Positions 10,368 through 17,292 of a stretch of DNA of 17,510 bases are shown here, in pieces. The stretch covers positions 1 through 17,510 of the forward strand of contig JAFGQA010000185.1 in NCBI GenBank assembly GCA_016935885.1. Reading direction: 5' to 3'. Source of the DNA: Phycisphaerae bacterium. GTDB taxonomy: Bacteria > Planctomycetota > Phycisphaerae > UBA1845 > UTPLA1. Position 1 is the stretch's first letter, and the number at the start of each line of letters is the position of its first letter. The notes under the pieces were generated by a model. That model ran no database searches, had not been told where the DNA came from, and was given only the letters and a program-made list of their open reading frames with translations. The position numbers and the translations under genes were made by a program.

Positions 10368-11600
10368 CTATGTTGTGGGATCCACCACGCGCCCGATGAA
10401 CAGAAGACTGCCGGATCGGATGTCGCGGATCAGGAACAGGAACGGATGATCCGCAATGAACACGGGGCTTGGCCCGCCGGCTCTCAGTTTCATGACGACC
10501 GCTGTTGCGGCTGCGGCTTCGGTGCCTTCTTCGTTCACGTCGACGTAGGCCTTGTGGATGACCTTCTTGATGAACAACTCCCTCGTCCCGTCCATGCCGG
10601 AGAAATCGGCCTTTCCGCCGAAGGCATCAGGCATCCCCATGTCGCTGAGTGTCTTCGACAAATCGAACCTTGCCTTTATCTTGAAGCGCGGCAGAGACAC
10701 ATCCACCGAGCACTCTCGCAAGGCGCCCAGCCATCGATCGAGGTTCCGCTGGGTCAGCGCTTCCTCCAGCCTGGCCAGTCCCCCGACGTCGCTCGGCAGC
10801 AAGACCACCATAGACAGTTCATCACCCACGTAGGGCAGATCGAGGGTTTGGAGCTTGTCGTCAGCCGCATACCGAAATTGCCCCCTCTGATGCATCATCG
10901 GCACAGCCACCTTCTTCTCCTCGCTGATCCTGAACGGCGCTTCCTTTGTGAGGTCCTTCTTGAACTGACTCGCCCAATCACCCTTGAAGTAGATCGCGTT
11001 GGTCAGGACCAGGCGCGTCAGGCTGTCGAGGTCGTCCGGCTTGAGAAGCTCCTTGATCTTGTCCTCTGTCTGCTCCTCAACCCAGGCGTTGATCGTTCGA
11101 CGGGCCGGCTCCCTGGCACCGACGAAGTCCACCTCGTGGAGCCCCGCGCCGTAATGTCTTCTCGTGACGCTTAGGAACTCCTCCAGAAAGGCGCGCCCCT
11201 TCTGGCCCCACAGGGCATTGGCGAGATGGAGCCGGTAGCCCGGTTCGTCCTCCTTGGCCGCGTCGGGGGCAAGCAGCGCCCCGAAGGCCGGATGCAACCG
11301 ATCCTGACCGAGCGAGAAGTGCAGGACTTGGGCCATTTGCCGCTCCGTCTGACCGCGAGCACCGGCGTACGTCATGGCAAGGGCCGTCGAGATGCTGTAC
11401 GGTGAGAAGATCAGGTTACCGTCTTCTTTCTTCAGTCTGGCGTGGAGGTCCAAAGCAAACGCGCTGTTCCCCTTGACCACGGTCTCCATGTCGGCCTCCG
11501 TCGGCCCGGCGGAAGCGACGCCGGGCCCACTCCACGGCAACCCGCCGAGAAGCGCCCAGCAACCAACCAAGCCCGTCCATATCATTTGTTTGTCCTTCAT
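10368..11600 (-). CDS. secreted serpin (serine protease inhibitor)
   Basis: Serpins trap proteases through cleavage of a reactive-centre loop. This 410-residue protein has a signal-peptide-like start (MKDKQ, then a helix, cut probable near residues 30-32 at ASA). It has full serpin motifs: NLIFSPYSISTALAMTYAGARGQT (62-85), LVLTNAIYFKGDW (197-209), MVVLLPS (264-270), LPRFKI (303-308), the hinge EEGTEAAAATA (357-367) and the C-terminal HPFLFLIRD...LLFIGRVVDP. The small-residue hinge is typical of inhibitory members. Counting from the hinge glycine as P15 gives R373 as P1 and A374 as P1', which predicts trypsin-like targets. The ATG at 11600 was chosen because GAGGTG lies 6 nt upstream and it opens the signal peptide. 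The predicted location is the periplasm or outside the cell, and the target protease is unknown. No protease gene is next to it. Confidence 0.95.
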   Translation of the reverse strand: MKDKQMIWTGLVGCWALLGGLPWSGPGVASAGPTEADMETVVKGNSAFALDLHARLKKEDGNLIFSPYSISTALAMTYAGARGQTERQMAQVLHFSLGQDRLHPAFGALLAPDAAKEDEPGYRLHLANALWGQKGRAFLEEFLSVTRRHYGAGLHEVDFVGAREPARRTINAWVEEQTEDKIKELLKPDDLDSLTRLVLTNAIYFKGDWASQFKKDLTKEAPFRISEEKKVAVPMMHQRGQFRYAADDKLQTLDLPYVGDELSMVVLLPSDVGGLARLEEALTQRNLDRWLGALRECSVDVSLPRFKIKARFDLSKTLSDMGMPDAFGGKADFSGMDGTRELFIKKVIHKAYVDVNEEGTEAAAATAVVMKLRAGGPSPVFIADHPFLFLIRDIRSGSLLFIGRVVDPTT

Positions 11601-11823
11601 CGTGCACCTCGTCTGTAAGCAACAACCTGACCATCCCGGCCCGTGCTTCGCGCCCATGAACGGCCACCGGTACTTGAGACGCCAGATCCGGCCTTGGGTT
11701 CCCGAAGCAGTGGCAACATCGTACCAGTTGTACCATCACGGCTGTTCATGCGTGTCGTTACCGGATGGTGCCGCCGTCGGCTTGCCCGCCGGTGGCCACG
11801 TGCTTAGCGTTCAAACGGGGTGG

Positions 11824-12037: not shown

Positions 12038-12649
12038 TCACTCCTTGCCCTCCCCCGTGGCTCGGCTCCGCACGAGGTCGAGCATCTCCCGCTCCAGCCC
12101 CCGGTCTCGCGGCATGGGCGTCCAGACCTGATCCTGCCGAGGACTGACGCCCGCGGCGTGGTCGATCGGCGTCTGGCTGGGCACGTCGCCGAATTCCTCA
12201 TTGCTGCGGAACACGCGATGGTCCTCGGTGTCCAGCCGCTCCACCCTGACCCGACACTTCACCAGGCTTCCGGCCCCGTGCTCGCGGACTAGCAACGTCG
12301 CCGTGCGGCGCATGCGATTCTGGTAGCCGATCGCACCATCGCGGATTCGTCCGGTACCCCCTTTTTGGTCGAATTCCTCCGCGGTGCTGCGGATCACGCC
12401 GTCAGCCTGCAGGACTTCGGCGACCGGGAACCACTGCCGCATCGCGTAGACGGAGGCATCAAACGCGGCGTCCCGTGTCACGGTGGGCAGTCGGATCGAC
12501 TGCCATCCCGTTTCCCGGCCACCGCCTTCCCCCGAGGCCTCCAAGTCCGAGCAGCCGCCCACACCGGCCAGGACGACCGCCAACCCCAACGCGGCGGCAC
12601 GCCAGACCGTGCGGCTGCCCATCGCCGGCAAAGACGCTACGCATCTCAT
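12038..12649 (-). CDS. putative lipoprotein of unknown function
   Basis: This 203-residue protein has a basic N-terminus, a hydrophobic stretch (about 17-30) and the lipobox-like VGGC with the lipidated cysteine at residue 33, followed by SDLEASGEGGG, a flexible linker. The rest is a soluble alpha/beta domain: a strand-rich RLPTVTRDAAFDASVYAMRQWF region, then an RVRVERLDTEDHRVFRS strand pair and a basic/acidic C-terminal tail. I recognise no family. Glycine at -1 and -2 fits a lipobox, though not ideally. The ATG at 12649 is preceded by CAGGGAG at 7 nt and is preferred over the ATG at 12622. It is divergent from lpxK, with a mobile repeat between them. Confidence 0.7.
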   Translation of the reverse strand: MRCVASLPAMGSRTVWRAAALGLAVVLAGVGGCSDLEASGEGGGRETGWQSIRLPTVTRDAAFDASVYAMRQWFPVAEVLQADGVIRSTAEEFDQKGGTGRIRDGAIGYQNRMRRTATLLVREHGAGSLVKCRVRVERLDTEDHRVFRSNEEFGDVPSQTPIDHAAGVSPRQDQVWTPMPRDRGLEREMLDLVRSRATGEGKE

Positions 12650-12757: not shown

Positions 12758-12766
12758 ACGTCAGGA
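12758..12766 (+). repeat. 9-bp target-site duplication, left copy (element copy 1)
   Basis: ACGTCAGGA lies immediately before GGGTCC. The identical ACGTCAGGA lies immediately after GGACCC at 12927-12935. Confidence 0.85.
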
Positions 12767-12926
12767 GGGTCCTTGACGCTTCCGGTGGCATTCGATTCTG
12801 CGCGCCACGGGCGGCGTGGGTGCCACTGGCGGCTTGTCCGCCAGTGCAGGCTCTCCGCTATGCGCATGGGGCATACACACTGGCAGGCAAGCTGCCAGTG
12901 GCACCCGCCTAAACTGTCACGGACCC
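12767..12926. mobile_element. MITE-like element, copy 1 (160 bp, 9-bp TSD)
   Basis: The element starts GGGTCCTTGACGCTT and ends with the complement of GGGTCCGTGACAGTT, giving 15-bp terminal inverted repeats with three mismatches. The core has two 29-nt arms (12818-12846 and 12878-12906) that pair with three mismatches, and each arm is itself a hairpin (CACTGGC...GCCAGTG). The 9-bp direct repeat ACGTCAGGA flanks both ends exactly. It contains no ORF of note and must be non-autonomous. It sits in the divergent spacer between the lipoprotein gene and lpxK. A second copy is at 16245-16396. I do not know an IS family with these ends. Confidence 0.8.
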
Positions 12927-12935
12927 ACGTCAGGA
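12927..12935 (+). repeat. 9-bp target-site duplication, right copy (element copy 1)
   Basis: ACGTCAGGA directly follows the right end of the element and is identical to 12758-12766. Confidence 0.85.
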
Positions 12936-16089: not shown

Positions 16090-16221
16090 CGTCCTCACGA
16101 CACCGCCTGCCCGCCAGTCTAATCCGATCATCCCGCGTTGTCAGCAGACGAGGGCCGTCTGATCGAGGATCGGGTGTGTGTGACGATGGTAGGTGGATTA
16201 TTGGGTAGCCAGATCAAGAGC

Positions 16222-16239
16222 CCCCGGCCTTGGCCGGGG
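16222..16239. repeat. perfect 8-bp GC hairpin
   Basis: CCCCGGCC-TT-GGCCGGGG is a perfect palindrome. Its last four bases overlap the left target-site duplication of element copy 2, so the element inserted at the edge of this hairpin. No T-run follows. Confidence 0.75.
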
Positions 16240-16244
16240 CGTAG
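16236..16244 (+). repeat. 9-bp target-site duplication, left copy (element copy 2)
   Basis: GGGGCGTAG lies at the left boundary of element copy 2 and is repeated at 16397-16405. Including flanking chance matches, the direct repeat is 13 bp (CCGGGGCGTAGCG at 16234-16246 and 16395-16407). Confidence 0.75.
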
Positions 16245-16396
16245 CGGTCCATGACGTTTCCGGTGGTATTCGATTCTTGTCGCTACGGCCGGCTTGTCCG
16301 CCCGTGCGGCCTCTCTGGTGGGCGTATACGGCATCCGCACTGGCACACACTGGCAGACAAGCTGCCAGTGGCACCCGCCCAAACTGCCACGCACCC
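16245..16396. mobile_element. MITE-like element, copy 2 (152 bp, 9-bp TSD)
   Basis: This aligns with copy 1 along its whole length. The left part shares TGACG(C/T)TTCCGGTGG and ATTCGATTCT, and the right arm 16348-16376 differs from copy 1 at one base. The ends have drifted (CGGTCC at left, GCACCC at right) and the left core arm has decayed. The 9-bp direct repeat GGGGCGTAG flanks it. The flanking repeat differs from that of copy 1, so this was a separate insertion. It appears older than copy 1, judged by its less perfect inverted ends. Confidence 0.75.
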
Positions 16397-16405
16397 GGGG
16401 CGTAG
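16397..16405 (+). repeat. 9-bp target-site duplication, right copy (element copy 2)
   Basis: GGGGCGTAG directly follows the right end of the element and is identical to 16236-16244. Confidence 0.75.
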
Positions 16406-16439
16406 CGTGAAAAACGAGCAATGCAGTGCGATTGCACTT

Positions 16440-16500
16440 GGCGGGGTGGCATGGATTAGCGAAGCCGCCAGCGGCGGCGGAGCTTACCCGTGGACATCTA
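16440..16500 (+). repeat. dispersed repeat B, copy 2
   Basis: This 61-nt copy of repeat B matches the reverse complement of 11889-11949 at about 85%, with the shared core AGCCGCCAGCGGCGGCGGAG. The spacer 16090-16532 otherwise holds only element copy 2 and small palindromes; no gene is supported. Confidence 0.85.
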
Positions 16501-16532
16501 CCCTGGGCCACGCTGCTATGAAAATATGCTGC

Positions 16533-16880
16533 TCATGCGGCTCCGGTGAGGGCCACGTTGTATCCGAGTCTCTCCAGCCGGCGTACGAGGCGTTTGGTCA
16601 TGAGCTCTCTGGCACGATCGTCGAAGTACATCGGTCCAAGGTCCTTATATTGGGTCCCGCGGGCGATCAGGGTGTGACAGCGGACAAACAGACTATGGGC
16701 CACCGCGACGGCCGCCTTCTTGGGGCCGCGACGCGTGCGGATACGCCGAAAGTGAGCCTGCAGGTAGGTTCCATTGGTGCGCTGCGCGGACCAGGCCGCC
16801 TGAACGAAAGCCTGTTTGATCCAGCGATTGCCAGGCCGCGGCCGGCAACGCCGCATCGGCAACGGGGACTTGCTCGGCAT
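16533..16880 (-). pseudogene. C-terminal remnant of an IS110-family transposase
   Basis: The frame reads PGNRWIKQAFVQAAWSAQRTNG and then TYLQAHFRRIRTRRGPKKAAVAVAHSLFV, continuing to GTQYKDLGPMYFDDRARE and RLVRRLERLGYNVAL. This is the C-terminal Transposase_20-type end of IS110/IS1111 transposases, which normally reads GN..LR..L..AAW, then RRG.K.A..A.AH, then LG.DYF and RRLE.LGY.V. The N-terminal DEDD catalytic domain is absent: above about base 16880 no frame on the minus strand resembles it, and a promoter for the opposite strand lies there. A truncated, inactive fossil. Confidence 0.8.
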
Positions 16881-16947
16881 GGGGCTGGTCCCATGTCGTC
16901 AACCGCGGCGCTCCGCAAAGAGCGAAATGAAAACATAGATGCTTCCC

Positions 16948-16976
16948 TTGACATGGTTAGCGTGGATGGGGATAAT
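16948..16976 (+). promoter_or_regulatory. near-consensus sigma70-type promoter
   Basis: TTGACA (16948-16953), a 17-nt spacer and GATAAT (16971-16976) match the vegetative consensus in 11 of 12 positions with ideal spacing. The expected start is near 16983. The first gene downstream in this direction is the cysteine-rich secreted protein at 17293. Sigma factor use in this phylum is not well known to me, so activity is inferred. Confidence 0.65.
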
Positions 16977-16982
16977 GGCATC

Positions 16983-17292
16983 TTGTGTCGGGGTGTGTGG
17001 CGCTGCTCTGCGAGCAGTGCGTTTAGACTCCACGCCTGAGCGATTGGATCAACGCCGGTCGCGGTGGGACCGGGACCGGTTTGGCGAGCCAACATGCGAG
17101 AGAAGGGCCAGGAAGGGCCCGCGAGAGGAGGTGACGATCGAGAACCGTGCAGGAGGCGGAGAGGGGAGACGTGTGCGCGCGTGCCCCGTCCTTCCCGAAC
17201 GCGGGCGGAGCATGTGCGGCGCCCCGGGAGCAGTCCTCTCGGTGTGTTGCCGAGGGCATGTGGAAGACTGTTTATGAACGGAGATCAAAACG
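16983..17292 (+). other. long structured, purine-rich leader (5' UTR) of the cysteine-rich gene
   Basis: About 310 nt separate the predicted start of transcription from the ATG. Hairpins include GCGCTGCTC-TGC-GAGCAGTGC (17000-17020, 9 bp with one G-U), GGGCC-N6-GGCCC (17105-17120) and CTCGG-N7-CCGAG (17238-17254). Between 17100 and 17170 the strand is strongly purine-rich, with several GAGG/GGAGG words. An arginine-rich frame runs through and overlaps the gene, but it does not look like a protein. No known riboswitch is recognised. Confidence 0.4.

Follow-up and report, generated by a model that had tools for sequence, protein, structure and literature searches.

A probable composite MITE joining ISKra4-type insertion sequence ends and an inverted REP doublet in a Phycisphaerae bacterium

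The divergent spacer between a lipoprotein gene and lpxK in a contig of a Phycisphaerae bacterium (hereafter the window, that is, the whole analyzed stretch of 17,510 nucleotides) contains a short, highly structured unit enclosed by a 9-bp direct repeat. The question raised by this locus is whether the unit is a miniature element moved by a DDE transposase or a palindromic repeat of the REP/BIME kind. As detailed below, two known kinds of mobile DNA are joined in one unit: very probably, the element is a composite MITE, in which the ends of an ISKra4-type insertion sequence (IS; Mutator superfamily, DDE transposase) enclose an inverted pair of REPs and which would be moved in trans.

Results

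Two copies of the element in the window

The first copy of the element (copy 1) spans 160 bp at positions 12767–12926 on the plus strand, starts with GGGTCCTTGACG and finishes with TGTCACGGACCC, and is flanked on the left (12758–12766) and on the right (12927–12935) by the exact 9-bp repeat ACGTCAGGA, precisely as described in the original prediction. The left (12767–12788, plus strand) and right (12905–12926, plus strand) ends are inverted copies of each other, with 16 of the 22 bp paired (73%), including 10 of the 12 outermost ones; the inverted ends that had been described as “15-bp near-perfect” are thus real although this wording was slightly generous. The core consists of two arms of 29 nt each that are 90% complementary, and each is a hairpin with a 9-bp stem and a 5-nt loop, again as originally stated. 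Arm 1 (12818–12846, plus strand) comprises a GGGTGC foot followed by the hairpin; arm 2 (12878–12906, minus strand) is inverted and, in the alignment of the ends, shares its two final bases with the right IS end. DNA folding of copy 1 yielded a z-score of −5.5, and none of 200 shuffled sequences folded equally well. Immediately to the left of arm 1, a degenerate REP-like stretch (12799–12834; 78% direct repeat over 18 nt) is perhaps a decayed REP arm. An Rfam match of the copy 1 palindrome to mir-9186 (31.9 bits, against the gathering score of 73) was taken as chance, and a search of plasmid and phage collections produced no match.

Scans of the window for the hairpin and the right end revealed a second copy, which is absent from the original prediction. 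Copy 2 is 152 bp long (16245–16396, plus strand), is located 3.5 kb from copy 1 and is flanked by a different 9-bp repeat, GGGGCGTAG, on the left (16236–16244) and on the right (16397–16405). The two copies can be aligned along their length, yet their duplications differ (ACGTCAGGA versus GGGGCGTAG), and both duplications are exact. The first ATG of a 262-aa open reading frame (16251–17039, plus strand), for which Pfam and NCBIfam gave no match, lies inside copy 2, which may supply the start of this reading frame, or else the true start may be further in.

The parent insertion sequence

Relatives of the element were sought in 397 genomes of the class to which belongs a Phycisphaerales MAG encoding an LpxK 59% identical to that of the window; judging by this one protein, the window probably derives from a planctomycete resembling the Phycisphaerae. 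Parts of the element were matched, with an E-value of 0.01, in at least 80 of these genomes (best two candidates per genome). The right 22 bp of copy 1 are exactly reproduced in three genomes (G013, G306 and G389); in G013 and G306, a transposase gene terminates with these 22 bp, and the TAA contained in the element is the stop codon of this gene. The truncated transposase of G306 is ISKra4-like (E-value 5e-49, 167.5 bits), and relatives of the transposase were detected, with an E-value of 1e-40, in at least 14 of the 397 genomes (best six candidates per genome).

Five full-length IS of 1524–1596 bp were delimited (G231, G104, G163, G102 and G276); their ends, which, like the 14 further left ends analyzed below, were picked by hand, are shared with the element. 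The 9-bp duplication is exact at the IS of G231 and G104, matches at eight of the nine positions in G163 and was not found in G102 and G276, and the REP hairpin pattern had no match in any of the five. In the IS of G231, the transposase gene occupies two frames, with a +1 shift at TCC CCC T. Joined across this shift, the protein scores 206.7 bits and so passes the ISKra4 cut-off of 205 by less than 2 bits; the second frame alone scores 176.6 bits, under the cut-off. The direction of the shift differs from that in the ISMich2 group, for which a −1 frameshift is described (PMC3942029). The motif TCTTTTTCCCCCTCAGG is kept in five IS (L337, L338, L161, L342 and L344) around nucleotides 453–475, where the transposase frame changes. 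A 499-bp IS derivative in G380 (L134:1484–1982) retains both ends and an interrupted transposase gene and is an intermediate between the IS and the MITE. Five contig ends in G013 (L139, L143, L146, L149 and L152) fall within one and the same IS right end, a pattern that a multi-copy IS would produce by breaking the assembly.

Taken together, the shared ends, the identity of the right 22 bp with the end of the transposase gene and the exact duplications at two full-length IS argue for a MITE derived from an ISKra4-type IS. The ends of the element are, very probably, the terminal inverted repeats of such an IS, and its interior is the REP hairpin pair of a RAYT system (HuH/Y1). The transposase of a full-length IS, acting in trans, would recognize the ends, move the whole unit and leave the 9-bp duplication, a mode of movement that we infer from the ends common to the IS and the element, from the duplications and from the existence of a multi-copy family.

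The REP hairpin and its RAYT clade

The hairpin is a repeat in its own right that is present in 14 of the 19 searched genomes, with 3 to 248 matches, as opposed to none for the reversed-pattern control. Among 41 examined loci encoding Y1 transposases, six have the hairpin close by (L095, L204 and L209 were chosen in the knowledge that a hairpin was near), and these hairpin-bearing loci form one clade, with 50–73% identity where the proteins are full length. A class-wide search with one RAYT of this clade identified nine long members with at least 52% identity, of which that in G395 contains an internal stop, along with a fragment in G078; this broken copy (L224) is 50% identical to L238 over 66 aa, so that, at this copy, identity does not cleanly separate the clade from other RAYTs. 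A strict regular expression, applied in one form to all 30 loci, detected the hairpin at seven of the nine clade loci, compared to none of the next 21 RAYT loci, and the remaining two clade loci carry stem variants of the hairpin. A looser expression, written after sight of these two variants, detected the hairpin at all nine clade loci and at none of the other 21; this class-wide comparison is fairer than that on the 41 Y1 loci. At the RAYT locus of G395, the hairpin was found on one side only, and all the matches in G323 are likewise on one side. All nine genomes with a clade RAYT are among those that match the element with an E-value of 0.01, and the clade protein passes the model for REP-associated tyrosine transposases, NF047646 (92.5 against 80).

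Given that the same hairpin flanks one RAYT clade and that the inverted hairpin pair is present in many copies, the core of the element is, judging by sequence, an inverted REP doublet of a RAYT system, resembling a REPIN or BIME. Neither the GTAG nor the CGTC tag of PMC3733652 is present in the arms in the window, which have the foot GGGTGC instead; the repeat thus resembles a REP in how it works, yet it is not assigned to those REP superfamilies. The paired hairpins being a REP doublet, the contrast drawn in the original prediction, a MITE rather than REP/BIME, fails: the element is both.

The composite in related genomes

Apart from the window, both IS-type ends around the REP doublet were found in G217, G267, G394 and G380; inspection of the G394 and G380 composites by eye revealed no exact duplication. 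In G217, a sister composite is present at about 40 places, with 36 left ends and 42 REP-to-right-end junctions recognized at up to three mismatches. Of the 60 end matches in this genome, 43 were retained as left ends; most of the others were right ends read in reverse, and one was a tandem record (L312). Among the 31 G217 copies with both flanks (L091 was added by hand), the duplication is exact at all nine positions in 13, with at most one mismatch in 17 and at most two in 21, whereas 10 copies differ at three or more of the nine positions as counted from the nominal boundary; it is absent at L301 and L310. When the G217 flanks were re-paired, no exact match of all nine positions occurred in 5000 rounds. 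Other copies have ends of the GGGTCC/GGACCC type and flanking duplications of their own, and full-length IS with such ends, the predicted counterparts, exist (the five delimited above). These duplications of other copies and the matching IS ends uphold the proposal that the element is non-autonomous and belongs to a DDE transposase, and that its 9-bp target duplication is real. The spacers adjoining lpxK in L001 and in G217 (L273) appear, by eye, to be free of the element and are too diverged to reveal a single ACGTCAGGA.

No RAYT of the hairpin clade was found in G217 (all 11 candidates were scored, the best showing 30% identity), nor was an ISKra4-type transposase detected in this genome at an E-value of 1e-10; the source of the enzyme, therefore, either is not in the assembly, has been lost or has diverged further. 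The abundance of the composite in a genome with no detected clade RAYT suggests that the REP doublet is cargo that can multiply without its own RAYT.

It could be argued that an IS-derived miniature element came first and that a RAYT added the REP doublet on site, in which case the composite would not be moved as a whole. We consider this improbable. The linker between the REP arms does differ by composite group, for example, among the G217 burst, the window type and G380, which fits such assembly on site and implies that the capture may have happened more than once. However, similar junctions and a similar linker are common to both window copies, G394_C122, G217_C324 and two copies in G267, and the 42 like junctions in G217 occupy scattered sites with differing flanks. 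Movement of the composite MITE as a unit accordingly remains our preferred reading of these loci.

Another repeat in G217, which ends with CCATTCTTGCGATTGCCCTG, recurs near composites, and several insertions are located directly next to this repeat (the loci with the repeat include L285, L296, L298, L300, L313, L325 and L326).

Fixed distance to promoters

The flanks of the relatives of the element have a position-specific structure. Counting outward from the left end, positions 28–32 are TTGMC-like and positions 51–56 are TANAAT-like in 38 G217 copies (the 43 left ends minus five with one shared repeat flank), which amounts to a sigma70 promoter whose two boxes are spaced by 17 bp. In 28 of the 38 copies, position 28 is occupied by T, with a KL value of 0.87 compared to the largest value of 0.46 among 2000 shifted controls. 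Scoring with the textbook sigma70 consensus, which was not fitted to these genomes, gave a mean peak of 6.79 at position 28, against about 3.3 elsewhere; restoring the five copies with the shared flank (n = 43) changed the mean at this position to 6.40. The score also peaks at position 28 (6.14) in 14 further left ends, of which 13 come from outside G217 (six of these from full-length or partial IS) and one is G217_C324, and there is no peak at this position in 26 right flanks (3.15). A score of at least 8 at positions 27–29 was observed for 21 of the 43 G217 left ends, whereas other such windows averaged 0.58 and reached 3 at most. Thus, on statistical grounds, the distance between the left ends of the related elements and sigma70-like promoters is fixed.

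The IS of a second subgroup (G163, G025 and G104), which were excluded from the profile of 14, have their best left positions at 36, 48 and 47, respectively, and so do not follow the rule on the left. In a distant ISKra4 element with 10 copies in G078, the score peaks on the right side, at position 27 (7.1, against a mean of 3.39). In the window, the best promoter matches of copy 1 are at positions 19 and 43, with a weak one at 27; next to copy 2, TTGATC is located at the −35 distance, that is, at position 28 (16212–16217, minus strand), but is weak and lacks a good −10 partner. Taken singly, neither copy has a convincing promoter at the distance seen in the relatives. No promoter or terminator was found at the scan threshold between positions 12600 and 13020; the original prediction had suggested that copy 1 could carry or disrupt promoters.

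According to Guerillot et al. (PMC3942029), TnGBS/ISLre2 and ISKra4-group elements insert upstream of sigmaA promoters, from which they keep a fixed distance. The promoter distance in the relatives agrees with that description, so the promoter preference is a known trait of the family, here found in a MITE. This kind of transposase prefers sites about 18 bp upstream of the −35 box and would, therefore, place the unit upstream of promoters, with the left end facing the promoter. The location of copy 1 in a gene-start spacer, between the lipoprotein gene and lpxK, fits the preference of the IS family for sites upstream of promoters.

Arguably, the fixed distance might reflect survival rather than targeting, with insertions elsewhere having been lost, inasmuch as genomes show only those insertions that survived. 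Such an origin of the pattern seems quite unlikely, however, for the peak is about three bases wide and is seen at one end only, the 26 right flanks having none; it recurs in several genomes and also at full-length or partial IS; the distant G078 element shows its own peak on the right side at position 27; and the same kind of specificity is described for related transposases (PMC3942029). Targeting by the transposase of the composite MITE is the reading that we carry forward.

Discussion

With the evidence from the window and from G217 in hand, an ordinary REP/BIME locus, in which a RAYT placed the hairpin pair and both the inverted ends and the 9-bp repeat are coincidental, can be dismissed as exceedingly improbable: the hairpin is indeed widespread, and most of the 21 core matches listed appear by eye to lack IS ends, but exact duplications lie outside IS-type ends in two window copies and 13 of the 31 G217 copies, and the ends of the element match those of full-length IS.

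Among the systems described in the literature, the ISKra4 group (p-MULT 4; Guerillot et al. 2014, PMC3942029), the hosts of which include Planctomycetes, is similar in having a related transposase, inverted ends and direct repeats as well as in inserting upstream of sigma70/sigmaA promoters at a distance that is fixed; the window element differs in lacking a transposase and in containing a REP doublet. In p-MULT 3 elements, it is the right end that is at the promoter (PMC3942029), whereas in the relatives of the window element, it is the left end. Bacterial MITEs, such as RUP, NEMIS and Bcr1, are similarly portrayed in PMC3733652 as non-coding units of 70–300 bp with inverted ends that are mobilized by an IS in trans; they belong to other IS families, and a REP doublet in the interior sets the window element apart from them. 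REPINs and BIMEs with their RAYTs, and TIRtrons (PMC3733652, PMC6006769, PMC3116915), share with it the many-copy inverted pair of short hairpins, and in the RAYT systems, too, the same hairpin flanks one Y1 transposase clade; the window doublet differs in lacking the GTAG/CGTC tag, in sitting between the ends of a DDE-type IS and in the 9-bp duplication. A DDE element is also joined with REP DNA in the case of IS1397 and ISPpu10 (references in PMC2817692), but there the IS lies inside the REP, whereas here the REP doublet lies inside the transposable unit. The listed titles and abstract openings of open-licence PMC papers describe neither an ISKra4 MITE nor a REP doublet within a MITE.

The spread of REPs is thought to depend on RAYTs, and REPs carried as cargo of a DDE element would represent a second route. 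It is conceivable, although we lean somewhat against it, that two unrelated mobile systems have been fused such that REP doublets are brought by a Mutator-type transposase that seeks promoters to the upstream edge of many of these, with distance and orientation both set, and REPs thereby spread in genomes lacking the cognate RAYT. If this is the case, the delivered doublet could act as a portable regulatory or supercoiling-insulating module, and REPs set at a fixed distance from promoters would provide a natural test of the role of a doublet located just upstream of a promoter. The promoter preference of ISKra4-type transposases, moreover, now includes an element that is non-autonomous and numbers about 40 copies in a single genome, G217.

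Elsewhere in the window, positions 10368–11657 on the minus strand encompass a clear serpin gene (Pfam PF00079, E-value 4e-127).
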